From a virus: DNA of 64,000 nt. The stretch is taken from positions 41,285 to 105,284 of IMG/VR virus record IMGVR_UViG_3300031746_000004; one strand, given 5' to 3'. A program made the position numbers and the translations under genes. The notes beneath the pieces are model-generated. The model did no database searches. It worked only from the letters and a program-made list of their open reading frames with translations, and had not been told where the DNA came from. Shown here one piece after another: positions 2,451 through 53,882 of this stretch. How positions within the stretch are numbered: position 1 is the first letter of the stretch; each line of letters starts with the position of its first letter.

Positions 2451-2993
2451 ATGAATAAATGTATCGATTGTAAAAAAGTATTAAAAGATTCGAGAAATAA
2501 AAGATGTCAAAAATGTTATTTAAAAATTATGAAAGGTAAAAATCATCCGAATTATAAACATGGAGAAGCATGTCAAAATAAGAAACATTTTTGTAAAGAT
2601 TGTGGAAAAAAAGTATGTGATTATATTGTAATAAGATGTCGTTCTTGTTCCAAAAAAGGAAAATTAAACAATCTTTTTGGTAAACATCATACATTAAAAA
2701 GTCGTAAAAAAGCTAGTTTATCTAAAGGCGGTACAGGAATTCCTTATGAATTTAATAAATATCCTGAAAAATTCTTTAAAATTAGATACTGGATTTTAAA
2801 AAGAGATAATCATACTTGCCAAAAATGTAATAAGTATGGTAATGAAATTCATCATATAGATTACGATAAAGAAAATAATAAAGAAGATAATTTATTGGTT
2901 TTATGCCATAAATGTAATATTAGGGCAAATTACAATCGTTCTTATTGGATAAATTTTTATCAGAATAAATTAAGAATTTCTTCGGAGAAATAA
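2451..2993 (+). CDS. Free-standing HNH homing endonuclease with zinc-ribbon modules
   Basis: The N-terminal half carries CxxC modules (NKCIDCKKVL, RCQKC, FCKDCGKK, RCRSC) and NUMOD3-like linkers (GKNHPNYKHG), which in this family bind DNA. The C-terminal half is an HNH domain: CQKC, then EIHHIDYDKENNKEDNL, then CHKC and NRSYW. It starts two bases after the glycosyltransferase stop. Its last codons (TCG GAG AAA) supply the GGAG site of the next gene, whose ATG is four bases after its stop. It is one of a family of such genes in this window. Confidence 0.9.
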   Translation: MNKCIDCKKVLKDSRNKRCQKCYLKIMKGKNHPNYKHGEACQNKKHFCKDCGKKVCDYIVIRCRSCSKKGKLNNLFGKHHTLKSRKKASLSKGGTGIPYEFNKYPEKFFKIRYWILKRDNHTCQKCNKYGNEIHHIDYDKENNKEDNLLVLCHKCNIRANYNRSYWINFYQNKLRISSEK

Positions 2994-2996
2994 ATA

Positions 2997-4724
2997 ATGG
3001 CTATACAAGAACAAACATTATATCAATTAAGTACTAATACTTGGAAAAAAATTTATGAAACTACTTTAACAGATGCAGCAACAAGTGTAACTATATCTTC
3101 TTTAGATGGAAATACTGATGAAGAATATATTTTAATTTGTCGTTTTATTGACGACGATACCACAGGTGGTTATTATCTTCGTTTTAATAACGATAGCGGA
3201 AATAATTATGGATATCAATATATAAAAGGTTCATCTTCTACTGCTTCTGCTTTAAGAGATACTTCAGAAGCTCAAATAGATTTAGGTTATACTAATACAG
3301 ATGGTAATATTTGTTTTTCTAAACATTTAATTCATGCTAAAAGTGGTTATGTAAGAACAGTAATAAGTGAATCAGCAGAAGATATAGCAACAACTACTGT
3401 AACAAATATAAAATCAATAGGTCAAGTATGGAATAATACAGCCGATAATATAACATCAATAGTTATTGGTGCTTTAAATGATAAATTAAATATAGGTAGT
3501 AGAATTATTTTATTAAAAAAAGCAAGTATAACTGGTTCTGGTTCTGGAATAAAAAATATTATAGCAGGAACTAAAAAAGGAAGTTGGGAAAGAATTTATT
3601 CTACTACTTTAACAGACGCAGATGCTTATACCAAACTCTTACTTCATTGCGATGAATCTACTCTCTATGACGTAACTGGTAAAACAGTTACTTTAGTAGG
3701 TACAGCAGCAATGAGTACAGCTCAAAAGAAATTTGGTATAGGTAGTTGTTTATTAGATGGTGATAGTGATTGTTTAACTTTAGCAGATTCAGACGATTGG
3801 TATTTCGGAACAGATAATTTTACTATAGATTTTTGGGTTAGATTTATAAGTGTAGCAGGAGACCAAGTCCCTATTGCTCAATGGTGGGATTTTGCTGGTG
3901 ATTTGAGTTTTAGAGTCATATTTGAATCGGGGGCATTACATTTTTATTATTCGACAGACGGTACGATAATAAAAGATGTTAGCTTTGGAGCTTTTTCTGT
4001 CGCAATAAATACGTGGTATCATATAGCTATAGTAAGAGATACAGTTAACCTTAAAGTATATGTTAATGGAGTACAAATAGGTTCGACTTATAATATAAGT
4101 ACTGACCCTTTATATAACTCATCCAGAGTTTTATCAATTGGGGCTAGATATGGTTCTTCTGTAGTACAGTTTTTAAACGGTTACTTAGACGAAATAAGAA
4201 TTAGCAAAGGTATAGCACGATGGACTGCTAACTTTACTCCTCCAACAGAACCCTATACAAGTAAATTAACTTCTCTTTCAATAAATAATTTAGATGGTAA
4301 TACAGATATTTTATATAGATTAAGATGTAGATTAATAAATGGTTATAATGGTGCAGCAAGTTATTATTTAAGACCTAATAACGACTCAGATTCAGATTAT
4401 GGTTATCAAGAGGTTGATGGAACTGATTCTACTGCATCAGCAGTAAGAGATACATCAGAAGCACAAATGCACTTAGGTTATGCTGCTGCTCAAAATAATT
4501 TATCTATATCAGAGACTATTTTTTATGTAAAATCTGGTTATTTAAGAACAGCACTAACCCAATTAATAAAAACAATAACAGGAACTACCTGTACTTCTAC
4601 GAATTTAAAAGGTCAAGTTTATCAAGATACAGCAACAAATATAACTTCATTAGTTATTCTTGCAGACCAAGCAAATGGTTTGGGAGTAGGAGTTGTTATA
4701 GAATTAGAAAGATTAAATTTATAA
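2997..4724 (+). CDS. Virion protein with a duplicated domain and an inserted LamG (concanavalin-like) domain
   Basis: The 575-residue protein begins with a beta domain (about 15-175) marked by WKKIYETTLTDA, SLDGNTDEEY, NNDSGNNYGYQ, STASALRDTSEAQ and a TSIVI ending. A second copy starts at 197 (WERIYSTTLTDA), is interrupted by a LamG domain (211-422: DNFTIDFWVRF, NTWYHIAIVRD, VYVNGVQIG, GYLDEIRISKGIARW), then resumes at 424 (LSINNLDGNTD) and runs to the end. LamG folds bind glycans. A close LamG cassette opens the protein at 26180. It is probably a tail fibre or surface adhesin; the receptor is unknown. Confidence 0.8.
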   Translation: MAIQEQTLYQLSTNTWKKIYETTLTDAATSVTISSLDGNTDEEYILICRFIDDDTTGGYYLRFNNDSGNNYGYQYIKGSSSTASALRDTSEAQIDLGYTNTDGNICFSKHLIHAKSGYVRTVISESAEDIATTTVTNIKSIGQVWNNTADNITSIVIGALNDKLNIGSRIILLKKASITGSGSGIKNIIAGTKKGSWERIYSTTLTDADAYTKLLLHCDESTLYDVTGKTVTLVGTAAMSTAQKKFGIGSCLLDGDSDCLTLADSDDWYFGTDNFTIDFWVRFISVAGDQVPIAQWWDFAGDLSFRVIFESGALHFYYSTDGTIIKDVSFGAFSVAINTWYHIAIVRDTVNLKVYVNGVQIGSTYNISTDPLYNSSRVLSIGARYGSSVVQFLNGYLDEIRISKGIARWTANFTPPTEPYTSKLTSLSINNLDGNTDILYRLRCRLINGYNGAASYYLRPNNDSDSDYGYQEVDGTDSTASAVRDTSEAQMHLGYAAAQNNLSISETIFYVKSGYLRTALTQLIKTITGTTCTSTNLKGQVYQDTATNITSLVILADQANGLGVGVVIELERLNL

Positions 4725-4745
4725 TTTATAAAAAGGAGATAATAG

Positions 4746-5039: not shown

Positions 5040-5054
5040 AAAGGAGTAAATATA

Positions 5055-6716
5055 ATGGCTAATTCGGGATTAGGAGACGGACTTTTTTCAGCTTTTATTA
5101 ATTGGCTTTACACAACTGGTGATATTTCAGTTCCACCTGATTTTCATAGTCGCTGCGAAAAAATTAAAGGAATGATAGATAACGATATTTCGGGGGTTAT
5201 AAATACAGTTTTAGATTATTCTATTTCTTCTGCTTCTAATGCACAATATAAAATAGAATGTAGCGATAATAATTTACAAAAATTATTAAATACTTGGTTA
5301 CAAAAAATTAATTTAGAACTAAAGGGAGTCCCCACAGGATTACAAGAACTCTCAAAAGAATATTTTAAAGAAAGATGGCAGGGTTCTTCTTTATGTTTAT
5401 TAAGAATTAAAGGTTGGGAAACTTTAACTATAGATAAAAATACAATAGAAGTACCTACTATTATGTGGTATGTTAATGGTTCTTCAGTATATGTAAAAAG
5501 AGATGCTGATAGTAATTATAAATTAGGTTCAGATATTTATTATTTAGATAAAGAACATAAAGTAAAAGTTCCAGAAGGAAATAAAGAAGAGATAATAATG
5601 CAAAAACCATTTGATAGGTGGTTTGACCAATATGCTACTCCTTATTTAATTCGTAAAGGAGTATATAAAAATTGGTTAACAATGAAAGTTTTACAAGAAA
5701 AATCTGACGAAGTTATTTCTAAAATTTTACCTTACTTATTTATAATTAAAAAAGGAACAGAAAGATTATTTATAGAAGGCGATATTAGTTACGACGACCC
5801 AGATTTAAAAAAAGTAGTAGATGGATTAAAAGAACAATTAGAATCTTATAAAAATCAAAAAAGTAAAACTCCTACAAATGCTACTACATTTGATACTGAA
5901 TATGACCATTTAATTCCCGATTTAAGAAAAATTTTGACAGAAGACCTTTATAAACAGGGTTTTCGTTTAATTTTATCAGGATTGGGATTTGTTGACATGT
6001 TAGAAATTGCTTCTTCAAGACAGGAAAGTAGAATAAATCCTAAACCATTTGTAGCAGAAATAAATAATGGTGTAGAAGGTTTTAAGTCTATGTTACTAGA
6101 TATAGTTTATAAAATTATAGAACGAAATAAAGAAAAACATCCTAAATTATTTAGTAACAATAATAAATTATTAATAGTAAATTCTCCTCTAAAAATAAAT
6201 GTAGAACAAATTTTAGACCAATTAAGAAGTGGTTATATTTATGGAGCAAGTTCTATTACTACTTATCAAGAAGTATTAGGATTAGACCCTGAAACAGAAA
6301 AAGAAAGACGACAAAAAGAATTAGACGAAGGATTAGAAGATTTATTTTATCCGCATTTAATTCAGAATAGAGAAGATATACCTGATAGAATGATTCCTTC
6401 GAAACCTAAGACAACTAAAAAAGAAACAGAAAAACAAAAAGAAAAAGAAACACTTCCAGAACATATGCAAGAAGCAGTTACTCAAGAAGATTTAGAAACA
6501 GCTCCTTATAAAAATTTAGATGAATTACCTAAATATATAAAGAAAATGACAAAACATTGCCAAGAAGTTTTTATGGCAACATTTAATTCTGTTTATAAAG
6601 ATACAGGAGACGAAGGTAAAAGTTTTGCTATAGCCAATTCTTCTGCTCGTAGATGTATGAAGAAGCAAGGTTATAATTATGATAAAGAAACTAAAACTTG
6701 GAAAAAGAAAGAATAA
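5055..6716 (+). CDS. Portal protein with C-terminal ChaB-like domain
   Basis: About 480 residues match the layout of a portal: the start is Gly-rich, then come FHSRCEKIKGMIDNDISGV, a beta-rich wing, a long central helix region (KGVYKNWLTMKVLQEKSDE; RLILSGLGFVDMLEIASSR) and a Gln/Glu/Lys-rich tail. Residues about 483-553 form a ChaB-like domain (YKNLDELPKYIKKM, VFMATFNSVYKD, SFAIANSSARRCM). The portal would form the dodecameric DNA gate of the capsid. Context supports this, since protease-scaffold and capsid genes follow. The ChaB fusion is unusual. Portal identity rests on architecture and position. Confidence 0.75.
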   Translation: MANSGLGDGLFSAFINWLYTTGDISVPPDFHSRCEKIKGMIDNDISGVINTVLDYSISSASNAQYKIECSDNNLQKLLNTWLQKINLELKGVPTGLQELSKEYFKERWQGSSLCLLRIKGWETLTIDKNTIEVPTIMWYVNGSSVYVKRDADSNYKLGSDIYYLDKEHKVKVPEGNKEEIIMQKPFDRWFDQYATPYLIRKGVYKNWLTMKVLQEKSDEVISKILPYLFIIKKGTERLFIEGDISYDDPDLKKVVDGLKEQLESYKNQKSKTPTNATTFDTEYDHLIPDLRKILTEDLYKQGFRLILSGLGFVDMLEIASSRQESRINPKPFVAEINNGVEGFKSMLLDIVYKIIERNKEKHPKLFSNNNKLLIVNSPLKINVEQILDQLRSGYIYGASSITTYQEVLGLDPETEKERRQKELDEGLEDLFYPHLIQNREDIPDRMIPSKPKTTKKETEKQKEKETLPEHMQEAVTQEDLETAPYKNLDELPKYIKKMTKHCQEVFMATFNSVYKDTGDEGKSFAIANSSARRCMKKQGYNYDKETKTWKKKE

Positions 6717-7351
6717 TGAAACATAACAAATGTATAGATTGTAACAAAAATTTGCATCCACTATCAAAATATCAAGGTTCTATACGATGCAAGTCTTGTG
6801 CAAGAAAATATCAATATGCTACAAGACCAGAAACAAATCCATTGTTTGATAAAAAAGGCAAAAATCATTATCAATGGAAGGGTGGCAAAGATTCGAGAAA
6901 ATGTTATTGTATAGATTGTAATAAAGAATTAAACGAAAGTGCACATTATAGAAAAGATAAAAGATGCAAATCTTGTTATTATAAAACATTAAAAGGTGAA
7001 GGCAATCCGATGTTTGGAATTCATCGATTTGGAGAAAAAGCTCCTACATGGATAGATGGTCGTTCTTTTGAACCTTATACAGAAGAATTTAATTCCGAAC
7101 TTAAAGAATTAATTCGTGATAGAGACAATCATGAGTGCCAGAATTGTAGTATGACCGAAGAAGAGCATTTGATAGTTAGAGGCAGAGTTTTAGATATTCA
7201 TCATATCGATTACGATAAAAAGAATTGTTCAAAAGAAAATTTGATTACTTTATGTAATTTTTGTAATATACGAGCCAATTTTAATAGAGATTATTGGCAA
7301 GAACTATTTATGAATAAAATGGAGGAATTATGCAAAACGATAAAAAATTAA
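6716..7351 (+). CDS. Free-standing HNH homing endonuclease
   Basis: I place the start at the ATG overlapping the portal stop (TAATG); a TTG further upstream in the same frame is less likely. Two zinc-ribbon modules (KCIDCNKN...RCKSC; YCIDCNKE...RCKSC) with NPLFDKKGKN and NPMFGIHRFG linkers lead into an HNH domain (CQNC, ILDIHHIDYDKKNCSKENL-like core, CNFC, NRDYW). The gene runs 22 bases into the next gene. Its codons ATG GAG GAA give that gene a GGAGG site, so protease-scaffold translation depends on sequence inside this gene. Confidence 0.88.
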   Translation: MKHNKCIDCNKNLHPLSKYQGSIRCKSCARKYQYATRPETNPLFDKKGKNHYQWKGGKDSRKCYCIDCNKELNESAHYRKDKRCKSCYYKTLKGEGNPMFGIHRFGEKAPTWIDGRSFEPYTEEFNSELKELIRDRDNHECQNCSMTEEEHLIVRGRVLDIHHIDYDKKNCSKENLITLCNFCNIRANFNRDYWQELFMNKMEELCKTIKN

Positions 7352-9204: not shown

Positions 9205-9207
9205 AAA

Positions 9208-9231: not shown

Positions 9232-9285
9232 AAAAAGATAGTAACAAAAAACGAAACAATCGATAAAAAAATAGGAGAAATAAAA

Positions 9286-14416: not shown

Positions 14417-14438
14417 AATAATAATTGAAATGAAATAC

Positions 14439-14474
14439 GAAGGAGAGAATCTCTTTCTTGAGAAACTCTCCTTC
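14439..14474 (+). terminator. 3' hairpin after the major tail gene
   Basis: GAAGGAGAG and CTCTCCTTC form a perfect 9-bp stem, with an inner TCTC/GAGA stem around a TTTCTT loop. It is followed by CCAAAATTG, not a T tract. It belongs to the same placement class as the hairpins at 803 and 10210. Confidence 0.65.
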
Positions 14475-14551
14475 CCAAAATTGTAATAAATGTAAGGTAA
14501 GGAAAATGAATAAAAAAGAAAGTAAAAATAATTCAATTATAATACACGCAG

Positions 14552-14600
14552 AGAGGAAACTAACGCCTATCGTATATGAAAGGTCTGTTTCCTCTTTTTT
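14552..14600 (+). terminator. Rho-independent terminator between major tail gene and HNH gene
   Basis: AGAGGAAAC pairs with GTTTCCTCT (9 bp) across a 26-base loop that can form a small inner CCT/AGG stem; the stem runs straight into six T residues. This is the only canonical terminator found in the plus-strand half. A TATAAT at 14538-14543 lies just upstream without a clear -35 box, so a short transcript starting there and ending here is possible but unproven. The rest of the 200-base gap carries no gene. Confidence 0.65.
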
Positions 14601-14616
14601 GCTTTATGGAGAATAG

Positions 14617-15345
14617 ATGCAATTTAAATTTTGCTCAGAATGTAAAACGAGAAAATCTATAAATCAATTTCATAAATGTATTAGAGATGGAATATCTAGT
14701 TGGTGTAAAGAATGTTATAAAGAATATTATATATTGCATAAAGAAGAAATAAAGAAATATAAAGTGAAACATTATCAAATTCATAAAGAAGAAATTAGAG
14801 AAAAACACAAAGAATATCAAAGGATTCATATAAAAGAAATTAAACAAAAGCACCACGACTATTGGTTAATAAACAAAAAACAATTAAGACAAAAACAAAT
14901 AAATTACAACATAACTAATCGAGATAAAATTAAGCAGTATCAACATAATTGGTATATAAAACATAAAGAAAAAATAATAAAACGACAAATCGATAATGAG
15001 AAAAGCAAATATAAAACAGATATTTGCTTTAGAATTTTAAAAAATTTAAGAGTCCGAATAAGATTGGCATTAAAAGGCAATCTCAAATCCGAAATTACTA
15101 TGAAGTTATTGGGTTGTAGTATTAAATTTTTTAGAAATTATTATGAATCTAAATTTACCAAAGGTATGTCTTGGACAAAAGTAATGAATGGAGAAATCCA
15201 CTGCGACCATATCAAACCCTGTGCTTCGTTTGATTTATCTAAACCAAGCGAGCAAAAGAAATGTTTTAATTACACTAATCTTCAACCTCTATGGGCAATT
15301 GATAATTTAAGAAAAAATAAGAAGGAATTTATATGCAGCCAATAA
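14617..15345 (+). CDS. HNH homing endonuclease, Lys/Tyr-repeat type
   Basis: The 242-residue protein starts with a zinc module (FCSECKTRKSINQFHKC, WCKECYKEY). Then come repeated basic helical units of the form HKEEI-x-K-x-KxYx (residues about 40-115), probably lying along DNA. The C-terminal nuclease core has ITMKLLGCSIKFFRNYYESKF, HCDHIKPCASFDLSKP and CFNYTNLQPLWAIDNLRKNK, an HNH variant with a DHI catalytic motif. It overlaps the next gene by 13 bases, and its codons AAG AAG GAA provide that gene's ribosome binding site. A related gene is at 15919. Confidence 0.85.
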   Translation: MQFKFCSECKTRKSINQFHKCIRDGISSWCKECYKEYYILHKEEIKKYKVKHYQIHKEEIREKHKEYQRIHIKEIKQKHHDYWLINKKQLRQKQINYNITNRDKIKQYQHNWYIKHKEKIIKRQIDNEKSKYKTDICFRILKNLRVRIRLALKGNLKSEITMKLLGCSIKFFRNYYESKFTKGMSWTKVMNGEIHCDHIKPCASFDLSKPSEQKKCFNYTNLQPLWAIDNLRKNKKEFICSQ

Positions 15346-15918: not shown

Positions 15919-16665
15919 ATGAAAAAAATATGCTCTATTTGTAAAGAAGAATTTATACCAAATTCAAATTCGCAAATACATTGCAAATTATGTAAAAAAA
16001 TTTTTTATTTAAAATATCAAAAAGAATATCATAAAAAACATAAATTAGCTCCAAAAATTAAAATTTGTGTAATATGTGGTAAAGAATTTATAAAAAATAG
16101 CAATCAAATATGTTGCTCCGAAGAATGTTCTCAAGAACTGAGGAAACAATATGCAAGACAATATAGAAAAGAATATTATAAAACCCATAAAGTAGAATTA
16201 AATAATAAAAAGTCAATTTGGAATAAACAATATAGGGAACAAAATAAAGAAAAAGTTGCAATATATATGAAGAATTATTATCTTAAAAATAAGGAAGAAA
16301 TAAGCAAATATAAAACAGAATATCAGAGAAATAGATGTAGAAATGATGTTAGTTATAGATTAAAAAAGAATTTAAGAAAAAGAGTTTGGGATGCTCTAAA
16401 AGAAAATGCAAAATCTGAGATAACTATGAAATTAATAGGTTGTAGTATAAATTTTTTAAAACAGCATTTAGAATCTCAATTTAAAAATGGAATGTTTTGG
16501 AATAATTATGGTAAACAAGGATGGGAAGTAGACCACATAATTCCTTGTGCTAGATTCGATTTAACTAAACCCGAAGAACAAGGTAAATGTTTTCATTACA
16601 CAAATTTACAACCCTTATGGGCAGACGAAAATTCAAGTAAAAGAGATACATTAATTACAGTATAA
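15919..16665 (+). CDS. HNH homing endonuclease, Lys/Tyr-repeat type
   Basis: This is a relative of the gene at 14617 with the same plan: two zinc modules (CSICKEEFIPN, CVICGKEFIKN, CCSEEC), basic helical repeats (QYRKEYYKTHKVELN and similar), then the nuclease core (ITMKLIGCSINFLKQHLESQF, EVDHIIPCARFDLTKPEEQ, CFHYTNLQPLWADEN). The 13-base gap upstream contains an AGGA site. The next gene has its own AGAGGA site just after the stop, so coupling is looser here than at other copies. Confidence 0.85.
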   Translation: MKKICSICKEEFIPNSNSQIHCKLCKKIFYLKYQKEYHKKHKLAPKIKICVICGKEFIKNSNQICCSEECSQELRKQYARQYRKEYYKTHKVELNNKKSIWNKQYREQNKEKVAIYMKNYYLKNKEEISKYKTEYQRNRCRNDVSYRLKKNLRKRVWDALKENAKSEITMKLIGCSINFLKQHLESQFKNGMFWNNYGKQGWEVDHIIPCARFDLTKPEEQGKCFHYTNLQPLWADENSSKRDTLITV

Positions 16666-16678
16666 AGAGGAATAAAAA

Positions 16679-17044: not shown

Positions 17045-18184
17045 ATGATTAGTTTAGGAGTACTCACATACAATACAGAACAACCACTACCAATGAGCAC
17101 CATTGCATCGGTTATATATGAAGGAGCACCAGCTTTTTCTTATCAACGTAAAAGTTTTTATGCAAATGGAAGATTTTGGGTATTTTGGAGCAATGGAAGA
17201 CAGGCAGCAGGAGATTTTAATATTTTATATTCTACTTCAATAAATGGTATAATTTGGACTTCTCCAATAATTATTAGACCCTGTATCAATAGTACAATGT
17301 TTTCGATTTGGTTTGATAATACTTATGTGCATTATGCTTATGCTGATAAAACTAAAATTTATTATCGGAGAGGAATTCCAAATGTAGATGGAACAATTAC
17401 TTGGAGTGCAGCAGAACAAGTTATATCCACTACATATAATCGGGCATCTTTTCCAATGGTATCTATTGATAGTAATGGTTATGTATGGGTGGGTTATCTT
17501 GATTGGACTGGAGCATCTGGAAGTGGCTATTATGCCTATGTTATTAAGTCTGGTAATAATAATGGAACGTGGGGAATAACTCCTTCTGGTTTTCCCTACA
17601 GATGTCCAGGCACTTCTGTAAATGTAGCTAAAGCAACTGTTATTCCTTTAACTTTGGGTAAAGTACTTATTATTTATTGTACTTATATGAATAGGAGTTT
17701 TAGAAGTCAATACTGGAATGGTTCTACTTGGAGTGGAGAAAAAGCACTTTCATCTGTTCCTTACGGTACTTGGGCACATTCAGCAGTTGCAGAAGGTGAT
17801 GATGTTCATCTTACCTTTTTGCAGAAAACTACGTATAATATTCAATATGCAAAGTATACTTACGCTATAGATAGTTGGTCTACAGAAGAGACTATACAAA
17901 TAGCAGCAACCTCACAAAGCGACCCAGTTTTATGTAGAGATATTATTTCTAATAATTTATATTGTTTTTGGTTTAAAAGTCCAGATTCAAATACTATTTA
18001 TTATAAGAAAAGAATTAATGGAACATGGGATAGCAATCCTATTACTTGGATAACAGATATTTTAACCCTATCTGATAATCGTTTAAATTGTTTTTATAAT
18101 AGTTATTCTGGAAAAATAGGAATAATGTATTGTTCTAAGACAACCAGTCCATTTGATTTAAGATTTACACATTTAATAATTTAG
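17045..18184 (+). CDS. Beta-propeller (BNR/sialidase-like) adhesin or tailspike
   Basis: This 379-residue protein has repeated FYANGRFWVFWSNG, FDNTYVHYAYADKTKIYYRR, VSIDSNGYVWVGYLDW, VHLTFLQKTTYNIQYAKY and SGKIGIMYCSK segments, each a four-stranded blade with YxxS or WxxG features. BNR-type propellers form exosialidases and sugar-binding tailspikes. The Asp-box (SxDxGxxW) is only loosely kept (STSINGIIWTS), so enzyme activity is uncertain and receptor binding is the safer guess. Confidence 0.65.
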   Translation: MISLGVLTYNTEQPLPMSTIASVIYEGAPAFSYQRKSFYANGRFWVFWSNGRQAAGDFNILYSTSINGIIWTSPIIIRPCINSTMFSIWFDNTYVHYAYADKTKIYYRRGIPNVDGTITWSAAEQVISTTYNRASFPMVSIDSNGYVWVGYLDWTGASGSGYYAYVIKSGNNNGTWGITPSGFPYRCPGTSVNVAKATVIPLTLGKVLIIYCTYMNRSFRSQYWNGSTWSGEKALSSVPYGTWAHSAVAEGDDVHLTFLQKTTYNIQYAKYTYAIDSWSTEETIQIAATSQSDPVLCRDIISNNLYCFWFKSPDSNTIYYKKRINGTWDSNPITWITDILTLSDNRLNCFYNSYSGKIGIMYCSKTTSPFDLRFTHLII

Positions 18185-18748: not shown

Positions 18749-19423
18749 ATGAAAAAATGTACGGATTGTAATAAAGAAATAAATTATCGAGCAATAAGAT
18801 GTAGAGAATGTGATAATTTAAATAGAAAAATAAAATATAAAGGCGAAAATAATCCAGCATTTATTGATGGTAGAACTTTAAAAAAATATTATTGTCTTAT
18901 ATGTAATAAAGAACTAAGTTGTTATCAAACAAAAACAAATATGTGCCAATCTTGCGAAAATAAAGAAAAATATAAAAACCCAAAAAATCATCCAAATTAT
19001 AAAGACGGTAGAAGTTTAGAAATTAAATTTTGTATCGATTGTGGACAAGAAATAGAATATAGAGCAATGAGATGTTCAAGTTGCGAAACCAAAAGGAGAT
19101 ATATTTTAGGTATTTTAAGTCCAGAAAAAACTCAACCAGAAATAAAATTACAAAAATTATTAAAAAGATTATTTCACAAAAAATATAAATTTGTAGGAAA
19201 TGGAATATATTGGATAACCAATTTTAATCCAGATTTTGTAAATATAAAAAATAAAAAGATTATAGAACTTTATGGCGATTATTGGCATAATAGACAAGAT
19301 ATTAAAGAAAAAGATAAATTAAGAATTCCTACTTATAAGAAATATGGTTATAAAATTCTTATTGTTTGGGAACATGAATTAGAAGATTTAAATGAATTAA
19401 TCAAAAAATTAAGGAAATTTTAA
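18749..19423 (+). CDS. Zinc-module homing endonuclease with Vsr/EDxHD-like nuclease
   Basis: Three N-terminal zinc modules (KCTDCNKEI, YCLICNKEL, FCIDCGQEI, each with a second CxxC) carry NUMOD3-like linkers (NNPAFIDGR, NHPNYKDGR). The C-terminal nuclease is not HNH: it has PEIKLQKLLKRLF, FNPDFVNIKNKK and IIELYGDYWHNRQDI, fitting a Vsr-like EDxHD enzyme of the I-Bth0305I type. It starts directly after the previous stop. Its last codons (TTA AGG AAA TTT) give the next gene its site, and the two genes share one base. Confidence 0.85.
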   Translation: MKKCTDCNKEINYRAIRCRECDNLNRKIKYKGENNPAFIDGRTLKKYYCLICNKELSCYQTKTNMCQSCENKEKYKNPKNHPNYKDGRSLEIKFCIDCGQEIEYRAMRCSSCETKRRYILGILSPEKTQPEIKLQKLLKRLFHKKYKFVGNGIYWITNFNPDFVNIKNKKIIELYGDYWHNRQDIKEKDKLRIPTYKKYGYKILIVWEHELEDLNELIKKLRKF

Positions 19424-36342: not shown

Positions 36343-36586
36343 GCTTTTTTATAGTAATTTTTAATATAGGAAACCCCAAATCTATCATAATTCCCCACAA
36401 AATTTTGGGAATCCACGCTAACCCTACAATAGAATTTATCATCATTATCTTTTCGGGAGAATATAACAATACTTCTTTAAAGTATTTAAAAATAGATAAG
36501 GACGGCAAAGATGAAAATCCTTGCAAATAATAACAAATAGCCGACAAGGTATAAATCCAAAAAATTTTAGAAGTTTTTTTATTCAT
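36332..36586 (-). CDS. MFS/BT1-like transporter, N-terminal fragment
   Basis: This 84-residue ORF has two membrane segments and reads like the start of a BT1 transporter: YYLQGFSSLPSLSIFKYFKE, then VGLAWIPKILWGIMID, corresponding to the typical QG..L...LKD...LPW.IKP..G..SD pattern. It ends in a basic tail and a stop inside the HNH gene. The remainder of the transporter is encoded at 34496-35602. The two parts may assemble as a split transporter or be inactive. Confidence 0.68.
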   Translation of the reverse strand: MNKKTSKIFWIYTLSAICYYLQGFSSLPSLSIFKYFKEVLLYSPEKIMMINSIVGLAWIPKILWGIMIDLGFPILKITIKKHEK

Positions 36587-38371: not shown

Positions 38372-38533
38372 CTAGTTCTCCATTAAATATCTAAAATAAG
38401 CAAACCAATAATCACGATTTATGTTTACTTTCAAATTGCATCCACGACAACTAGTAATTAAATTATCTTCTTTATTATTTTGTTTATTATAATTAATATG
38501 ATGTACTGTTTTATTTCTTTTAAATTTATTCAT
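38372..38533 (-). pseudogene. Remnant of an HNH homing gene (53 codons)
   Basis: The mini-ORF starts one base after the deformylase stop and encodes only the second half of an HNH domain: VHHINYNKQNNKEDNLITSC, RGCNLKVNINRDYWFAYF and YLMEN. The first CxxC of the finger and all N-terminal modules are gone. Its last codons ATG GAG AAC TAG give the site for the M50 gene, whose ATG follows directly. It matches the C-terminus of the intact gene at 44364. Confidence 0.8.
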
Positions 38534-38534
38534 T

Positions 38535-40680: not shown

Positions 40681-40870
40681 TTTTCTTTTTATAAGTAGGA
40701 AATATACTGGGGAATTTTTTTCGTGCTATTCTCAATGCGATTAATCCCTGACATTTATGAATAGCTTCTGCAAATTCTTCTTTTTCAGAAGGATGTTGTT
40801 CTTCCAATTTAACAAAAGAATTATATGATTTAGTTAAATAATCCAATACTTGTTTTTCTAATTTAGTCAA
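40673..40870 (-). CDS. Small helical protein with TTG start
   Basis: This 65-residue charged helical protein (TKLEKQVLDYLTKSYNSFVK, KCQGLIALRIARKKF) starts at a TTG in the end of the endonuclease gene upstream. An AAAGGAG sequence in that gene's codons lies nine bases before it. No ATG is available at the right place. The function is unknown. Confidence 0.6.
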   Translation of the reverse strand: MTKLEKQVLDYLTKSYNSFVKLEEQHPSEKEEFAEAIHKCQGLIALRIARKKFPSIFPTYKKKNE

Positions 40871-41528
40871 CTTTACTTACTCCCTTTTCTCTAATTACAA
40901 TAAATTGTTTTATTCCTTCTAAATAATTAATATCAATTATTACTTTAAGAATAACATTTGGAAATAATTTTTTGAATAATTTGTATTTTTTCCTAGCATC
41001 ATCTCTCCAATATCCTTTGATTTCAATATAAATATTACTTTTTGGAAGATAAAAGTCTGGAGTATAAGTAGTATCTTTCAAATCAAATTCTTTGGGTTCA
41101 TAAATGTATTCAATATTATGTCTATCTAACCATTTGGCAAACTTAATTTCCCAACTACTTCTCATCCAAATGTGATTATAATAACCTCCTAAATAACTAT
41201 TATTTTTAGATTGACATCCTTTTCCAAAATTTGGATTTGCCCTTCCCTTTAATTTATGATTGTCATAATTGGGATTTTCTTTACCTTTCATAGTTTTTAA
41301 ATAACAACTTTTACATTGTTTAGCATAAAAACTCATTTTATTACCACATTTACAATAAAACTTTCTACCATGCTTGTATAAAGGATTTAACTTTCCTTTT
41401 TTACCAAACATAGGATTGTGTTTACCTTTATTAGCACAAGACATACATCTAACAGAATAACAAGTTATTCTTCTATGGCATTTTATACAATAATTCTTTT
41501 TTAATGTAATTCCGTTTTTATAATTCAT
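40863..41528 (-). CDS. Zinc-module homing endonuclease with PD-(D/E)XK-like nuclease
   Basis: N-terminal modules (YCIKCHRRI, RCMSC, FYCKCGNKM, CKSC) and linkers NPMFGKKG, NPLYKHGR, NPNYDNHK and NPNFGKG precede a different nuclease core: SSWEIKFAKWLDRHNIEYIY, TYTPDFYLPKS and IYIEIKGYWRDDARKKY. That gives E, PD and ExK in PD-(D/E)XK order. The same DNA-binding modules are therefore joined to an unrelated catalytic fold. It overlaps the gp46-like stop (ATGA), and its end supplies the site and TTG start of the next gene. Confidence 0.82.
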   Translation of the reverse strand: MNYKNGITLKKNYCIKCHRRITCYSVRCMSCANKGKHNPMFGKKGKLNPLYKHGRKFYCKCGNKMSFYAKQCKSCYLKTMKGKENPNYDNHKLKGRANPNFGKGCQSKNNSYLGGYYNHIWMRSSWEIKFAKWLDRHNIEYIYEPKEFDLKDTTYTPDFYLPKSNIYIEIKGYWRDDARKKYKLFKKLFPNVILKVIIDINYLEGIKQFIVIREKGVSKVD

Positions 41529-42991
41529 TGTATTATACTAGAATTGTTTTGCCTGATAACCATAAAATTTTTTGTATCTTCAATCGATTCTTCTAATCCT
41601 TGATAAACACAAATTGCTTGAAAGGGTAAAGTTTTTAAAATATTTATAAGATTTTTAAAATTAATCCAATCAATATTATTTAAAGAATCATCTAAAATTA
41701 TCAATCCGATTTTATTTTGTTGTATTAAAATAGCCAACTTAAACATGACTCCTAAAAAACACTTTTGACCTGTGGATAATTGGTCATATTTTAAAATTTG
41801 TTCATTATCAAAAACTCTAACAAAATCTTTATTAGATGTAAATTCTACTTTAATATTTAAAGGGTTTAATAAATTATTTAAAACAATTGAAAGAGAACTT
41901 AACCATTCCTTTATATATTCTCCTGCAAAAGAATCTAAAACCTTTACTGCTTCGTCATAAATAATAATATCTGCTTTTGTATATTTATAATCTGCGAATT
42001 GAAAAGCATTTTCTAATCTTATTGCTTTTCTTCTTATTTTTTCTATTTTAAAATCTAAATTATTTGTTTTATTTTCTAAATCGGTTAAATATTCTATATC
42101 TCCTGTAATAGATTCTCTTAGAGATTCTATATCTTTATTTAATTGTACTATTTCTTGAGTTAATATAGTCTCTGCCGAATATGATAATTTTTTTCCTATC
42201 TTATCACAAGATGTTTTGAGAATAGGGCAAATTCCTATTTTAGCATTTTTAATTTCTGTATCTTTATAAGTAATAATTCTTTGTTTAGCAGAAATCTCTC
42301 CATTTACTTTCGATAAAGAAGATTGCGTTTCTTTAACTAAGATTAATAATTCTTTTTTATCTAATAATAATTTATTAATACCTATTTTTAAAACTTCTCG
42401 TCTTTTTTCGGAGAGATAATGTTTACATAATTTTTTATCAATCGAAAATCTTTCTCTTTCTACTTTTAGTGTTAATAATCGAGTTCTAATTTGAGTAAAT
42501 ATATCTTCTATAAAAGACATTAAGGATTTCCTGAGAGATACAATACCTAAATCTAATGTATTTATTCCGTTCTTCAAATCGCAACATCTATATTGTCTAA
42601 AGAAATTAATATCTCCAAAATGCTCATTAATAAACTGCTGCTTAATACTTGCAGTATTAGCTTGGACTTCTTCTCCATTATAAAAGACCTGTAACTCACT
42701 TGGTATCTTTCTTATAATTTTAAATGTATCGTTACCTTTTTGTATTACAATTGTAACCTCTGTTTCTTTTTCATCAAATCGAATTAAATCAACTAATTTT
42801 AATCCTTCCTCTACATATCCGTAGAGGCAGAATAAAATAGCACGCAATACTAATGTAGATTTTCCGCTACCGTTGCCCGATTCTGAAGGACTGTCCAAAT
42901 TTTTCCCAGATACTATATTAATCTTATCAAAATCAACCTGAGCTGATTTGATAAGTTGGAGGTTTTGTATTTTTAAGGATTTTATAATCAT
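41525..42991 (-). CDS. Rad50/SbcC-like recombination ATPase (T4 gp46-like)
   Basis: I place the start at the ATG in an ATGA overlap with the previous gene, giving 488 residues. Walker A GNGSGKSTL is at 39-47, a long coiled coil follows, with a CPILKTSC pair near the middle that may be a zinc hook. ABC signature LSTGQKCFLG and Walker B LIILDDSLNNIDW are near the C-terminus. With the gp47-like nuclease two genes upstream it forms the end-resection complex used in phage recombination and repair. Confidence 0.88.
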   Translation of the reverse strand: MIIKSLKIQNLQLIKSAQVDFDKINIVSGKNLDSPSESGNGSGKSTLVLRAILFCLYGYVEEGLKLVDLIRFDEKETEVTIVIQKGNDTFKIIRKIPSELQVFYNGEEVQANTASIKQQFINEHFGDINFFRQYRCCDLKNGINTLDLGIVSLRKSLMSFIEDIFTQIRTRLLTLKVERERFSIDKKLCKHYLSEKRREVLKIGINKLLLDKKELLILVKETQSSLSKVNGEISAKQRIITYKDTEIKNAKIGICPILKTSCDKIGKKLSYSAETILTQEIVQLNKDIESLRESITGDIEYLTDLENKTNNLDFKIEKIRRKAIRLENAFQFADYKYTKADIIIYDEAVKVLDSFAGEYIKEWLSSLSIVLNNLLNPLNIKVEFTSNKDFVRVFDNEQILKYDQLSTGQKCFLGVMFKLAILIQQNKIGLIILDDSLNNIDWINFKNLINILKTLPFQAICVYQGLEESIEDTKNFMVIRQNNSSIIQ

Positions 42992-43380
42992 GTTTGTCTG
43001 GGGTCTCTTCCCCATCGTCTTTCTGTTATAATTTTACCCTGTTCATGAGAAATATTTCCTGTATCTTCTGTTTTTTCTACTATAGGTCTTCCATCTACTG
43101 TTTGTCCTATAATTTTAAATGTTTTAATAATCATTGGTATAGGAGCAACCATTTCAGAATAAAAATCAGCATAATTCATTTCTGGTTCTTGTGCAACTCG
43201 TAATTCTGACTGGTATCTTCCTTCTATTCTAATATTAATAATTGTTCCCTCATCTAATTCTCTATAGTGTTCATGCCCACAATTAGGACAGATAATAATT
43301 TGTCTTTCTGTAATATCTTCAAATTCATAAATTACTTCTTGTTGACAATTGTGGCAAAATTCTTTTTGTCTTAATTTCAT
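42988..43380 (-). CDS. Zinc-ribbon protein between gp46/gp47-like genes
   Basis: The 130-residue protein has a four-Cys ribbon (FCHNCQQEV, CPNCGHEHY) in the first 40 residues. A beta-rich stretch and a flexible charged C-terminus (ITERRWGRDPRQT) follow. It lies between the two recombination nuclease genes, so it may bind DNA or modulate them. No known family. Confidence 0.62.
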   Translation of the reverse strand: MKLRQKEFCHNCQQEVIYEFEDITERQIIICPNCGHEHYRELDEGTIINIRIEGRYQSELRVAQEPEMNYADFYSEMVAPIPMIIKTFKIIGQTVDGRPIVEKTEDTGNISHEQGKIITERRWGRDPRQT

Positions 43381-44367
43381 TTATTCTATCTCTTTCTGTA
43401 GAATTTCCATAATTTTGAGGTCTATTTTTTGATTATTTAAATAATTCCTAAAACTTTCTTTAAAATTTACTATTTCGGTACGTATACTTTTTTCGGTACT
43501 ATCCGAAATAACTTCAAAGTCTGTTTCGTACTTAAATGTCGCAAATTTTGTATCATAATTACGACATAAAGGAAGAAATTCTCTAAAACTAGTGAAATCT
43601 AAGATTTTCACTTTAACCTTTGTTTTTGGGTCTAATTTGTCTAAAGTAGGTATAAGTTCGGATAGGGTCATTCTTATGTTCGAATTTAATGGCTTTTCTC
43701 CTTCGAAATTAGACGATTTAGGTTCTGAAGTGGTATTTAGAGAGTCTAAAACATCATTTTTATATAACTCAAATTGTTTCATAGGGATAGGAGTTTTAAG
43801 AGGTATGAAATCAACCTTTTCTTGAGAAGTATTATAATTAGTAATCAAAGCCACTAATTTATATTTATCTTTGGCTTCATCAAAATTAACAAAACGACAA
43901 CTTCCTAAATGTATTATATTAGGGTCAAAGGAATGTAAATGTCCCAAAAAAATAAGCAAATAATAATTTTTTAAATCTTTTATAGATATTTTAGCACCAT
44001 AATTTTTAGAAGATTCTTTTACAGAAAAATGTCCACAATAAAGATGATTTCCGTCTCTTATTTCTTTTACTATTTCTATATTATGATTAAGAATTCCATA
44101 ATGATTTAGGATTGATTCTTCTTGTGTGGTACTCTCATGACTATCAGCAGCGATTATAGTAATAGGTCGATTTAAATCTCTAATAAATTTTGCAAATAAA
44201 TCTAATTCCAAACTTGATGGTTTCAAACAATCAAAATTATCACCCAATGAAATAATATTCGTAACAGAATATTTGTTACATAATTCGATTATTTCCCGAA
44301 GAATCAAATTACATTCTTTAAGAGAACTCTGATTAATATGTAAATCTCCAAAAATTAAATAAGTCAT
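43381..44367 (-). CDS. Mre11/SbcD-like nuclease (T4 gp47-like)
   Basis: The 328-residue metallophosphoesterase has YLIFGDLHIN, ISLGDNFDC, AADSHESTT (in place of the usual GNHD) , YCGHFSV and FLGHLHSFD. The order matches Mre11-type nucleases. A helical C-terminal part may bind the gp46-like ATPase. Its ATG overlaps the HNH gene upstream, whose codons ATG GAG AAT provide the ribosome site. Confidence 0.86.
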   Translation of the reverse strand: MTYLIFGDLHINQSSLKECNLILREIIELCNKYSVTNIISLGDNFDCLKPSSLELDLFAKFIRDLNRPITIIAADSHESTTQEESILNHYGILNHNIEIVKEIRDGNHLYCGHFSVKESSKNYGAKISIKDLKNYYLLIFLGHLHSFDPNIIHLGSCRFVNFDEAKDKYKLVALITNYNTSQEKVDFIPLKTPIPMKQFELYKNDVLDSLNTTSEPKSSNFEGEKPLNSNIRMTLSELIPTLDKLDPKTKVKVKILDFTSFREFLPLCRNYDTKFATFKYETDFEVISDSTEKSIRTEIVNFKESFRNYLNNQKIDLKIMEILQKEIE

Positions 44368-44930
44368 TTATTCTCCATTAAATATCTAAAATAAGCAAAC
44401 CAATAATCTCTGTTGAAATTAGTTTTAATATGACATTTAAAACAAAGAGTAATTAGATTTTTTCTTTTATCATTTTGTTTATTATAATTAATATGATGTA
44501 CATGTGTTCCTATTTTTTGACATAAGATGCATGTATGATTATCTCTTTTAAGTATTTTTAATCTAATTATATTAAATTTTTTAGTATAAGGTAAATGCCC
44601 CATTCCATGAATATAATTAGGATTCTTTTCTCCCTCGATTGAAAGTCTTGGTTTTTGCATTTTTTGTTTTACTTCAATATTATTCATACAATCTTTAATA
44701 AACTTTTTTTCTTGTTGAGATAATTTTTTATGATTATTATAATTAGGATTATTTTTACCTTTAAAATTACAAATTCCAGTTATAAATCTTCTTTTATTTT
44801 CACAAGAATGACAACGAATAGCAGAGGAGTTCAAACTTAATATTTTTTTACAATTAATGCAGTATTTTGGTAGGTATTTACTACTTTTCCCATGTATAAA
44901 ACAATGATGATTTTTACCAATTTTTTTCAT
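44364..44930 (-). CDS. Free-standing HNH homing endonuclease
   Basis: I choose the ATG six bases after GGAG as the start. The protein has zinc pairs (YCINCKKI, RCHSC), linkers NNPNYNNHK and NPNYIHGMG, and an HNH core (CILCQKIGT, VHHINYNKQNDKRKNL, CFKCHIKTNFNRDYW). The C-terminus YFRYLMENK is almost the same as that of the remnant at 38372. Its last codons carry GGAG for the gp47-like gene. A 65-base AT-rich gap with no gene lies upstream. Confidence 0.87.
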   Translation of the reverse strand: MKKIGKNHHCFIHGKSSKYLPKYCINCKKILSLNSSAIRCHSCENKRRFITGICNFKGKNNPNYNNHKKLSQQEKKFIKDCMNNIEVKQKMQKPRLSIEGEKNPNYIHGMGHLPYTKKFNIIRLKILKRDNHTCILCQKIGTHVHHINYNKQNDKRKNLITLCFKCHIKTNFNRDYWFAYFRYLMENK

Positions 44931-44995
44931 CTTCATCTCCAAATTTTAACAAAGGAATAGGCAAATTATTTAAATCGAGATGGCAAATAACTTGC

Positions 44996-46835: not shown

Positions 46836-46851
46836 TTTTTATCACTTTTGG

Positions 46852-46876: not shown

Positions 46877-46883
46877 ATTTTTA

Positions 46884-50802: not shown

Positions 50803-50803
50803 T

Positions 50804-50866
50804 TTATGCACCCCCAAAACATCCTATTCCTGGTTTTCGTTTATAAATGGGTTTTAGGTTTTTAAA
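50804..50866 (-). pseudogene. Relic of a terminase C-terminus
   Basis: Between the membrane gene and the HD gene, a 20-codon frame without a start reads KPIYKRKPGIGCFGGA and then a TAA. The intact terminase ends EIKPITRKKPGLGYFGEI and stop. The matched positions (KPI, KPG, G, FG and stop) are too many to be chance in non-coding DNA. The two DNA stretches differ at many bases, so this is an old copy or the end of a different terminase. Confidence 0.6.
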
Positions 50867-51104
50867 TTAAAGCTATAATTATTAATATCCTTAAAAATGT
50901 AATAATAATTAAACCTATTCCTATACCTATAATATTAGCTAACATATCTAACCAATCAAAACCTGTTCCATAAAAACGGTCATATATTTCTTTAAAAAAT
51001 CCTAATAATAACGTTAATAATACTCCTAATGTTATACCTAAAAATAATCCTAATAAAATCATTAATGTTAAAGATACATAAAAATGCAATAATTTATCTT
51101 CCAT
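50862..51104 (-). CDS. Small membrane protein, VanZ/DUF2279-like pattern
   Basis: The 80-residue protein starts DKLLHFYVSLTLMILLG and contains GFFKEIYDRFYGTGFDWLDM, then a Gly-rich last membrane helix (LANIIGIGIGLIIITFLRI). The DK-LH, KE-YD and DWLD-LAN motifs match small bacterial membrane proteins of VanZ or DUF2279 type. It starts on the last base of the terminase stop. A terminase-tail relic follows it. Confidence 0.6.
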   Translation of the reverse strand: MEDKLLHFYVSLTLMILLGLFLGITLGVLLTLLLGFFKEIYDRFYGTGFDWLDMLANIIGIGIGLIIITFLRILIIIALI

Positions 51105-53698
51105 TAAATTTCTCCAAAATAACCCAAACCTGGTTTTTTTCTTGTTATAGGTTTAATTTCTTCCATTTCTTTTAAAAAATGAGTAATAGCAAATACTTGA
51201 AATGCTTGAAATAAATGATTTGCTCCTTTACAACTATATAATATTTTTCCTTGTTTACTTCTTACTACTATAATATTATTTATTTGAGTATCTAATTTAA
51301 TATCTTCATAACATTGTATTTTCTTATTATAAAAAATATCCTTTAAACATTGAATAGACCAATCTACAACGTTTGCTTTTTTCATAACAGGATGTCCTTC
51401 TTTATCTCTTATTTCTTTACCTTTATCATCTCTTTCAAAATCTATTTCTATATTAGAATTAAAATCTATAGGGATGATATTTTCTGGGTATTTTTTAATT
51501 AAATGACTATATAAAGATTTCCCTACACCACTAGAATGGTCTAATCCTACAATATTAGGTTGTAAAATTTCTATTAAATATTCTATAAAATCCTTTTCTT
51601 CATCTGGAGATAATTGAAAAGTAGTAATTCTATAAATATATTTATAAATTTTATTTGTTTTAGAAACGATAATATATTCCGAAGGTGCTCCGCCTTCTCC
51701 TACGTCGAAATAAATTCCTAAACTTTCCGCATTATTTGGTTTTTCTATAATAATAATTTCTTTGTATCTAAAATAACTATCTTTATTTATTTCAAATGAT
51801 TTTATAGGAATACCCATACCCTGCTTATCTAAAATATAAGTTTGTCTAATTCGTTGAATATCAAATACACTTTCTGCTCCTTCGATGACTTTTCCATCTA
51901 TTTGAACTTGATATCCGATAGAATCCTTTCCTCCAAATTCCTTTATAGCATCTGTTTCTTTTTTATCATTCCAAGTCGGATTCACATAAGAAGGAAGATT
52001 AACTATTTTCTTTTTATTTTCTAAATTAAAAAATATTTCTCCCATTGGAGATGTTTTTGTAAAAGTTGTCATACCGCTATTATGAACAATAAATCCATTA
52101 GCTATAAATGAATGACATTTAGTTTCTATATCATATACTTGTTGATTTTCTAAATATCCTTTACATTTTATCTGTTCTTTATTAAATATTGGTCTACGAA
52201 TATTAAGAATAGTTTTCCTATATCTTAATCCTTTTTTACAAGGCATTTCGTAAAAAGGTAACTCATATTTGTTAATCGAAAACTGCACAGATTTATTAGA
52301 TTCTCTATAATTTTTACAATATTTTAGTTTTAATATATTTAAAATAGATTCTATTTTTTCAACTTTATTCCTATTAGTTTTATTTGATTGGGTAATCATC
52401 ATGGAACCATCATTTCCCAAATATCCATCTCCAATAATAAATCCAATTAAAAAACCATACATACTATCTTTCAATATTTCTAATTCTTTATATGCTTGTA
52501 ACATTATATAATTGCTATTTCTATTAATATTAAATCTATATGGAGTTTTTTTGTTCCAACCATGTTTTTTTTGTTCTATTTTAGTATACATTATATTCAA
52601 TTTTTGTAATAACCATTCAATAAAATCAACTTCATCTGATTGATGTATTATAAATTGATGTAAGATTTCTTCTTTTCCTTTTAATATATAATGAGAACCA
52701 TCACTTTCTATTAAACCTATTAACACCCCTCTTAAATAATAATCTATATTATGCAGATAATTAATACTTTTCATAAAATATTTATATCTCATACATCCAT
52801 AGGCTTCTCGCCATTTATAAACTTTATCTCCTTCACTCAAACACCGAATTTTATGTTCGGGAGTTAACCACAGTTCATTTCGACTATCATCTATTTTAAT
52901 AACATCTCGTATTCCAGAATCAAATAAATTTAGTACTTCAGTTTCTATTAGAGAATTTTGTTTTTCATCCCAAGCAATAATTAAATCGTTTTGTTGTATA
53001 TCTTCTATATTTTTGGTAGAAAAATCAAACATTAATATTTTAGTTCCTTCTCTAATACAAAAACGATTTATACATCCTTTTTCAGATTGAGCCATTAACA
53101 TTTTTCCAGAAACATCTTTAGTAAGATAACTAGATTCTTCCATATATTGTCTATCATAATGTTTACCGAAATATTGTCCACCTGGATTTTTACCTGTAAT
53201 ATTTTGATTAACACTTTCTAATAAAAGTCCACTATCAAAATTTAATTTATAGGTGGGACTCCGTAAGGGATGACAATTTAAAAATTTCATTATTTTATGA
53301 TTCTCAAAACAATTAATTAATTTTTCAAAGATTTCTAATAAATGTAGTTTATCATAAGAAGAAATAACAGCCCATTTATAAACTTGATTAAAAGTACAAA
53401 CTAAAACATCTATTGTAATAGCAATAATAGATTTGCCTGTAAGACGACCTCCTAATGCATAACTTTCTGCTAGATTATTTTTTACTTCCCAATTCTTTTC
53501 TTTAGATAATTTTTTATCTTCTAAAAATAAAGAATCATAACTCAACATAGGATATTGATATAATCTTATAAACCCAAATTTATTCTTATCAAAAACTCCT
53601 AGAGAATCAAAATCGTGAAATAAAATCTGAGATGCACTTATTGGATGAGTCATTACTTCAAAAAATATTAAATCTTCTTGTTTAATTTTTAGTATCAT
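51104..53698 (-). CDS. Terminase large subunit interrupted by an intein
   Basis: The start is the ATG at 53698, ten bases after GGAG; upstream codons in frame overlap an HNH remnant. The ATPase domain has SYALGGRLTGKSII (Walker A) and RQYMEESSYLTKDV (Walker B region); the nuclease domain has IYFDVGEGGAPSEY and NIVGLDHSSGVGKS. The two extein parts meet at GCINRF and SGMTTFTKTSPMG. The enzyme packages and cuts DNA at the portal. It lies on the opposite strand to the portal, about 45 kb away. Confidence 0.88.
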   Translation of the reverse strand: MILKIKQEDLIFFEVMTHPISASQILFHDFDSLGVFDKNKFGFIRLYQYPMLSYDSLFLEDKKLSKEKNWEVKNNLAESYALGGRLTGKSIIAITIDVLVCTFNQVYKWAVISSYDKLHLLEIFEKLINCFENHKIMKFLNCHPLRSPTYKLNFDSGLLLESVNQNITGKNPGGQYFGKHYDRQYMEESSYLTKDVSGKMLMAQSEKGCINRFCIREGTKILMFDFSTKNIEDIQQNDLIIAWDEKQNSLIETEVLNLFDSGIRDVIKIDDSRNELWLTPEHKIRCLSEGDKVYKWREAYGCMRYKYFMKSINYLHNIDYYLRGVLIGLIESDGSHYILKGKEEILHQFIIHQSDEVDFIEWLLQKLNIMYTKIEQKKHGWNKKTPYRFNINRNSNYIMLQAYKELEILKDSMYGFLIGFIIGDGYLGNDGSMMITQSNKTNRNKVEKIESILNILKLKYCKNYRESNKSVQFSINKYELPFYEMPCKKGLRYRKTILNIRRPIFNKEQIKCKGYLENQQVYDIETKCHSFIANGFIVHNSGMTTFTKTSPMGEIFFNLENKKKIVNLPSYVNPTWNDKKETDAIKEFGGKDSIGYQVQIDGKVIEGAESVFDIQRIRQTYILDKQGMGIPIKSFEINKDSYFRYKEIIIIEKPNNAESLGIYFDVGEGGAPSEYIIVSKTNKIYKYIYRITTFQLSPDEEKDFIEYLIEILQPNIVGLDHSSGVGKSLYSHLIKKYPENIIPIDFNSNIEIDFERDDKGKEIRDKEGHPVMKKANVVDWSIQCLKDIFYNKKIQCYEDIKLDTQINNIIVVRSKQGKILYSCKGANHLFQAFQVFAITHFLKEMEEIKPITRKKPGLGYFGEI
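52079..53059 (-). mobile_element. Intein with LAGLIDADG homing endonuclease (in terminase)
   Basis: The 327-residue in-frame insert begins CIREGTKILMFDFSTKNIED and ends CHSFIANGFIVHN before Ser+1. Block B reads DDSRNELWLTPEHKI. The two DOD motifs are LIGLIESDGSHY and LIGFIIGDGYLG. Splicing would join Phe and Ser of a conserved terminase segment just after the ATPase site. No damage to key residues is visible. Confidence 0.88.
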
Positions 53699-53702
53699 AA
53701 AT

Positions 53703-53882
53703 CTAATTCTCCAAAAAATATTTAAAATACACAAACCAATAATCTCTATTATAATTAACTTTTGAATTACAACTATTACAAACTGTAATTAAATTATTTT
53801 CGTTACAATTTTGTTTATCATAATCGATGTGATGAATTAATATTCTTTTTTCTTGTTTAGTTAGATTTTTATTGGTAATCAT
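53703..53882 (-). pseudogene. Remnant of an HNH homing gene (59 codons)
   Basis: ATG at 53882 overlaps the previous stop (ATGA). The mini-ORF keeps the second half of the HNH core (ILIHHIDYDKQNCNENNL, CNSCNSKVNYNRDYWFVYF) and the YFLEN end but lacks the first CxxC and all zinc modules. Its final codons TTG GAG AAT TAG carry GGAG for the terminase. Thus terminase translation appears to depend on this leftover. Confidence 0.8.

Follow-up and report, generated by a model that had tools for sequence, protein, structure and literature searches.

The window, by which we mean the whole 64,000-nt stretch of DNA analysed here, comprises bases 41285-105284 of the 105 kb IMG/VR phage record IMGVR_UViG_3300031746_000004. 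The G+C content is 27%, and the genome consists of tightly packed phage genes that are read in long same-strand runs. Positions 1-25000 of the window gave no DNA match to GenBank phages, and the matches to GenBank phage proteins are distant lectin and baseplate domains. The closest relative used, IMGVR_UViG_3300031952_000004 (R; positions in this record carry the prefix R), is 97-99% identical to the window over most of its length. The two differ by many insertions and deletions of endonuclease size, in both directions. Three further relatives, G011 (3300032046_000006), G012 (3300035701_000011) and G013 (3300030613_000016), are more distant and match the flanking proteins with identities of about 27% to 84%. 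A repeat-rich ORF (SGIRHALSGIRH.../WDKACAERRKACAE...) was noticed at R 2738-3320, and its repeats also touch window positions 63708-64000.

Endonuclease genes and their 3' ends

All eight ORFs that the preliminary description had listed as intact free-standing endonuclease genes are present in the window. They look like free-standing homing endonuclease genes, mostly of the HNH type with zinc-finger/NUMOD3 modules. By Pfam, the genes at 2451, 6716, 35599 and 44364 encode HNH domains with or without NUMOD3, where for some endonucleases the HNH score lies below the curated cut-off. The gene at 18749 is assigned to DUF559, with an additional sub-threshold Vsr match, and that at 40863 to Phage_endo_I (PD-(D/E)XK) plus NUMOD3. 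The genes at 14617 and 15919 have the HNH-type motif DHIxPC...NLQPLW, recognized by eye and through their mutual similarity. No member of the GIY-YIG family was found in the whole record.

Shine-Dalgarno (SD) sequences were called with a single rule at all borders, namely a match of at least 4 nt to AAAGGAGGTGA that contains GG or GAG, at a spacing of 3-14. The start picker favours SD matches, equally so for endonuclease and ordinary borders. Borders with at most 8 nt between the genes are referred to as tight.

In seven of the eight genes the last codons contain the SD of the next gene, as had been described. The HNH/NUMOD3 endonuclease gene at 2451-2993 (+) carries GGAG (2984-2987) for the ATG at 2997. 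In R this border is occupied by a different HNH endonuclease, whose tail likewise holds an SD. The HNH gene at 6716-7351 (+), whose own start overlaps the upstream stop as TAATG, contains GGAGG (7321-7325) for an ATG at 7330, which lies 22 nt inside the endonuclease end. In the gene of the NLQPLW class at 14617-15345 (+), AAGGA (15322-15326) precedes an ATG at 15333, 13 nt inside, and R has the same arrangement of SD and start. Directly 5' of this gene lies a gene-free stretch of 200 nt (14417-14616) with two hairpin-like stretches. The DUF559/Vsr-like gene at 18749-19423 (+) has AAGGA (19411-19415) for the ATG at 19423, and the next start overlaps the endonuclease stop as TAATG.

On the other strand, the HNH gene at 35599-36342 (-) carries GAGGT (35608-35612) for an ATG at 35602 in an ATGA overlap. 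The HNH gene at 44364-44942 (-) ends in YLMENK and the stop codon, and its GGAG (44373-44376) is placed in the same way for an ATG at 44367, again as ATGA. The endonuclease of R at this border differs in its N-terminal half and has a tail of the same type. The PD-(D/E)XK (Phage_endo_I-like) gene with NUMOD3 at 40863-41528 (-) contains GGGAG (40880-40884) and, as stated in the preliminary description, the TTG start of the next gene (40870), 8 nt inside the endonuclease gene; this TTG is conserved in R. The HNH-type gene at 15919-16665 (+) is the one exception among the eight, and its SD (GAGG, 16667-16670) follows the stop.

Two endonuclease remnants were found in addition. The first, at 38372-38534 (-), ends in YLMEN and the stop codon and has kept GGAG (38378-38381) for an ATG at 38371. 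The second, at 53703-53882 (-), ends in FLEN and the stop codon and has kept GGAG (53709-53712) for an ATG at 53698. Of both genes, the window and R alike have retained no more than the C-terminal HNH half, together with the SD.

The SD lies inside the upstream coding sequence at 9/10 endonuclease borders of the window (8 genes and 2 remnants), compared with 24/82 other co-directional borders (Fisher p = 3.3e-4). R gave 10/13 versus 46/144 (p = 0.002), values that are not independent of those of the window. Starts with an SD of their own are, conversely, rarer among endonuclease genes, both in the window (4/10 versus 65/82, p = 0.014) and in R (6/15 versus 119/142, p = 4e-4). Apart from 15919, the exceptions are R39632 and the NUMOD3 remnant R78470, both without a clear SD, and a split SMC-like gene of G013 without an SD. 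The comparison of borders confirms that SD-bearing endonuclease tails are real and non-random within this phage. Ordinary compact packing would require nothing special of endonucleases, as the SD of a closely following gene tends to lie in whichever gene precedes it, and no retention effect would follow. Packing alone leaves the excess in this phage unaccounted for, since among tight borders of the window the SD is inside the upstream gene at 9/9 endonuclease borders versus 24/41 ordinary ones (p = 0.015).

Genes split by endonuclease insertions

The preliminary description had placed all eight endonuclease genes exactly between genes. This does not apply to 35599, which splits a single gene for a BT1 transporter. 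The 5' half at 36332-36586 (-) encodes 84 aa matching positions 1-53 of the BT1 profile, and the 3' half at 34496-35602 (-) encodes 368 aa matching positions 58-408. R has a single ORF of 398 aa matching BT1 positions 1-408. As the gene is unbroken in all four relatives (R, G011, G012 and G013) and split in the window alone, the insertion belongs to the lineage of the window. The break sits in a conserved WGxxxDxxxxxK loop, and the endonuclease tail gives AGAGGTAATCAATGA, in which SD, start and stop for the 3' half are combined in an overlap.

The transporter itself, a phage-encoded MFS protein of the BT1 family (folate/biopterin type; window 34496-36586, -), is conserved in five related phages. 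A NUMOD3-like remnant (R 78470-78754, -) lies at the 5' end of the intact BT1 gene of R. Its start codon is the one from which BT1 is read in the window; the BT1 start of R lies within the remnant and has no clear SD.

Three more ORFs that are intact in relatives are split in the same manner. DNA polymerase B is split near residue 673 in R and G012 by a near-identical HNH endonuclease (R93120-93785) that ends AAAAAAGGAGCAAAATAATG, and the polymerases of the window and G013 are single ORFs. A phosphoesterase-like gene (window 43381-44367) is split in R by an HNH-like gene (R85983-86543), with GGGAG before the new start, and is unbroken in the window, G011, G012 and G013. An SMC-like gene is split in G012 by an HNH gene within its CPIL motif; the tail AAAAAGGAAAAAATAATGG has an SD, and a short repeat is found on both sides. 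In G013, another HNH gene splits the SMC-like gene elsewhere, in this case without an SD.

Several genes of these phages have in-frame inserts of another kind. In the window, a large gene at 51104-53698 (-) contains an intein-like LAGLIDADG insert at about residues 214-534, which is absent in G012 and G013. An intein-like LAGLIDADG insert is also found in DNA polymerase B of R (R 95220-96412, -) near residue 176, and the polymerases of G011 and of a further phage, G014, have in-frame inserts at other places than that of R. The Prim-Pol primase gene encodes 609 aa in the window (59539-61368, -) and is an open frame of 1012 aa in R (106081-109119), the longer version probably being due to another in-frame intein-like insert.

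The split pieces could be decaying pseudogene fragments, with SD matches that are coincidental in purine-rich, AT-rich DNA. The missing SD at the restart of the G013 SMC split agrees with this, but we regard it as improbable for the BT1 and polymerase pieces. The BT1 half of 368 aa and the pieces of the polymerase have open frames and are conserved to the same degree as their neighbours. The polymerase split has persisted in two phages, R and G012, each time with the same endonuclease and SD, and in both the BT1 and the polymerase splits the endonuclease stop overlaps the ATG of the restart. The split halves may work together. As there was no translation signal at these places before, the inserted endonuclease must have supplied the SD. 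Packing of neighbouring genes leaves such cases unaccounted for as well, because no prior border existed there.

Occupied and empty sites and the source of the SD

Occupied and empty alleles of one site exist among the related phages for 18749, 35599, 6716, R40848, R53515, R93120 and R85983. Some flanking genes are divergent alleles, so that the occupied allele does not in every case descend directly from the empty one. Protein 17045-18184 has no relatives that we could find, and for this reason there is no clean empty allele for the site of 15919.

18749: The site is empty in R, and the upstream gene there ends in codons that contain the resident AAGGAA. In the window the tail of the upstream gene is altered, and AAGGAA is now within the endonuclease tail.

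6716: The site is empty in G011, with AAAGGAG in the last codons of the upstream gene. It is occupied in the window, R and G012 by endonucleases that have their own GGAGG or GGAGGT.

R40848-41486: The site is empty in the window, where the SD is GGGAG. R has kept GGGAG, which now stands before the GTG of the endonuclease, and the endonuclease tail provides AAGGAT before the next ATG.

R53515: The window and G012 are empty at this site. The endonuclease is of the PD-(D/E)XK type in R and belongs to a different family in G011, and in both cases it ends with an SD followed by TAATG. A truncation of the upstream gene by R53515 was considered and dropped, as the endonuclease-less G012 has a protein of the same shorter length.

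44364: In G012 and G013 the site has a short untranslated leader, GGAGATAATG(ATA)ATG, and the window reads TTTGGAGATGAAGATG at the endonuclease start. Judged from this similarity, the resident signal probably serves the endonuclease.

38372: The site is empty in G011, G012 and G013, and the deformylase gene's own last codons hold the SD there.

In the empty sites, the SD is thus often already within the previous gene, as expected for ordinary phage packing; this applies to 18749, 6716 and 38372. The preliminary description had proposed that the insertion replaces the neighbour's SD. This holds at 18749 (against R), at 6716 (against G011) and at R40848 and R53515 (against the window), and it fails at 40863, whose tail is the upstream gene's own SD-bearing end. 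The resident SD is, moreover, not lost at R40848 and probably not at 44364, where it now serves the endonuclease. The opposite pattern, an SD that always stayed unchanged outside the insert, was not found in the empty sites of R, G011, G012, G013 and the window.

The SD appears to arise in two ways, either brought by the endonuclease or captured from the site. The first is suggested by a tail of YLMEN and the stop codon, ATGGAGAAnTAnATG with variants, which ends 44364, R87100 and the remnants at 38372 and 53703 (the latter with a variant). It recurs at three unrelated loci, and the homology between these loci stops at the next ATG. Capture is suggested by the 40863 site, at which the PD-(D/E)XK endonuclease of the window and the HNH endonuclease of R (R82660) share a tail, VIREKGVSKVD and IIREKGESKID, respectively, each followed by the stop codon. 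Over 38 nt, the R82660 tail can be aligned with the end of the upstream SMC-like gene at a score of 24, the best mismatched pair reaching 15. The SMC-like gene ends with VIREKGISNVKTE and the stop codon in G012 and with VIREKRVSHVK and the stop codon in G013. In the window, the SMC/RecN-like gene upstream of 40863 (41525-43015, -) now has a 3' end of its own without an SD. From the shared tails and the SMC ends of G012 and G013 we conclude that the 40863 frame continues into what used to be the end of the upstream gene.

It might be argued that the SD at the endonuclease end was resident in every case and that the gene inserted just upstream, its frame merely running into the SD. This is favoured by the 40863/R82660 tail, whose homologue in G012 and G013 is the end of the upstream gene, by the 2451 tail TTCGGAGAAA, which is similar to the end of the upstream gene in R, and by the resident ATGGAGAAATAAATGA of G012 at 38372, which resembles the tail of the remnant. 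The argument stays valid for single sites, but it cannot hold universally, since the split genes had neither SD nor start at the insertion point. The YLMEN tails common to unrelated loci and the position of the resident SD left of the insert at R40848 also speak against it, and as the general explanation it is unlikely.

Compared with mismatched pairs, target-site-like repeats at both endonuclease ends stand out from the bulk in three places only, namely the G012 SMC split, R82660 and, weakly, 15919. As the signal is confined to these three sites, we claim no general target duplication.

The reading we favour for the observed anatomy, the empty and occupied alleles, the gene splits and the tail that recurs at unrelated loci is that free-standing homing endonucleases invade a compact phage genome with last codons that present the SD of the next cistron, whether brought or captured. 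We consider this likely. The last codons would take over the job of the previous gene by providing the next cistron's SD, often with a stop/start overlap. In one route, the mobile segment would carry the SD up to the next start codon, as with the YLMEN-type tail and the tails at 6716, 18749 and 35599. In the other, the endonuclease frame would extend into the 3' end that the upstream gene already had at the site, retaining the SD of that gene, as at 40863. Because a cassette can end in an SD plus a start codon, landing inside a coding sequence can leave two translatable halves. We infer that the SDs in the tails are used. Dependence of the next gene on the SD would plausibly slow the loss of the endonuclease gene, and the remnants that have kept their SD fit such a lock-in, short of proving it.

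A bolder version is that one endonuclease lineage carries a portable stop-SD-start end (the YLMEN tail with its stop codon, ATGGAGAAnTAnATG) in its mobile segment. Such an end would make insertions in and between genes survivable and would leave a scar that is kept after the rest has decayed; a homing element would thus have evolved a module for restarting translation. We put this forward as a speculation that is rather unlikely to be correct.

Other phages and comparison with known systems

To what extent SD-bearing tails occur elsewhere was surveyed in 160 loci around related HNH endonucleases on other IMG/VR contigs, which gave 145 3' ends, 122 of them with a next gene. The SD is inside the endonuclease at 31/71 borders (44%) of family A versus 146/387 ordinary borders (38%) of the same loci (one-sided p = 0.21), and at 19/51 (37%) of family B versus 123/395 (31%) (one-sided p = 0.23). 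SD-rich loci taken alone showed no excess at endonuclease borders either (p = 1.0 and 0.82). The SD-in-tail arrangement hence recurs in other phages, including before ligase and capsid-protease genes, at the ordinary rate. Among 20 flanking proteins around ten endonucleases of other phages, many of which are without a family match, no further clear split gene was found.

The idea of a general strategy of phage HNH endonucleases is not borne out by these 122 borders, which show no excess over ordinary compact borders. They are what ordinary packing would predict, and we give this explanation a substantial chance, somewhat below even. A caution to be drawn from the survey is that, taken alone, last codons with an SD are nothing unusual in compact phage genomes. 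The original interpretation is therefore partly supported, being right at several sites, partly wrong at others and overstated as a general strategy. What the favoured reading would offer is a concrete reason why homing genes can enter compact operons, and even genes as important as that of DNA polymerase, without silencing downstream genes, and a possible reason why decayed endonuclease copies persist.

In T-even phages, SegH and Hef are found in place of mobC and mobE at the same border. The phages studied here resemble them in having different endonucleases at one border in related phages (2451, 40863 and the R53515 site). We know of no tail sharing between unrelated endonucleases at one border, as seen at 40863, from the work on T-even replacements.

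Among the open-access papers covered, none was found on the next gene's SD inside an endonuclease tail, and the closest published statement was that of a review on T4 (PMC2988022). Genes in pieces are known from Aeh1 mobE in nrdA, T4 mobA in gene 60/39 and seg43 with gene 43 of Aeromonas phage 25 (PMC2988022). As in these cases, a free-standing endonuclease makes two ORFs of one gene here, and one of the known cases also concerns a family B DNA polymerase, like the split in R and G012. Beyond them, BT1, the phosphoesterase-like gene and the SMC-like gene are new split genes and the polymerase is another polymerase split, with a restart SD and ATG in the endonuclease tail. With polymerase B included, at least four new gene splits with visible restart signals are thus added.

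In the free-standing seg and mob genes of T4, promoters of the downstream gene are embedded (segG/gene 32; segA, segE, mobB and mobC), which is said to favour retention, and endonuclease starts have also been described as coupled to the upstream gene (PMC2988022). The genes described here are likewise free-standing, lie between conserved genes and hold an expression signal of the neighbour inside the endonuclease coding sequence. In T4, however, this signal is a promoter, whereas here it is an SD, often together with the start codon, in the last codons. Precedents for both embedded promoters and split genes thus exist in T4, and the SD in the endonuclease tail is the translational counterpart of the published embedded promoters, extending that idea to translation.
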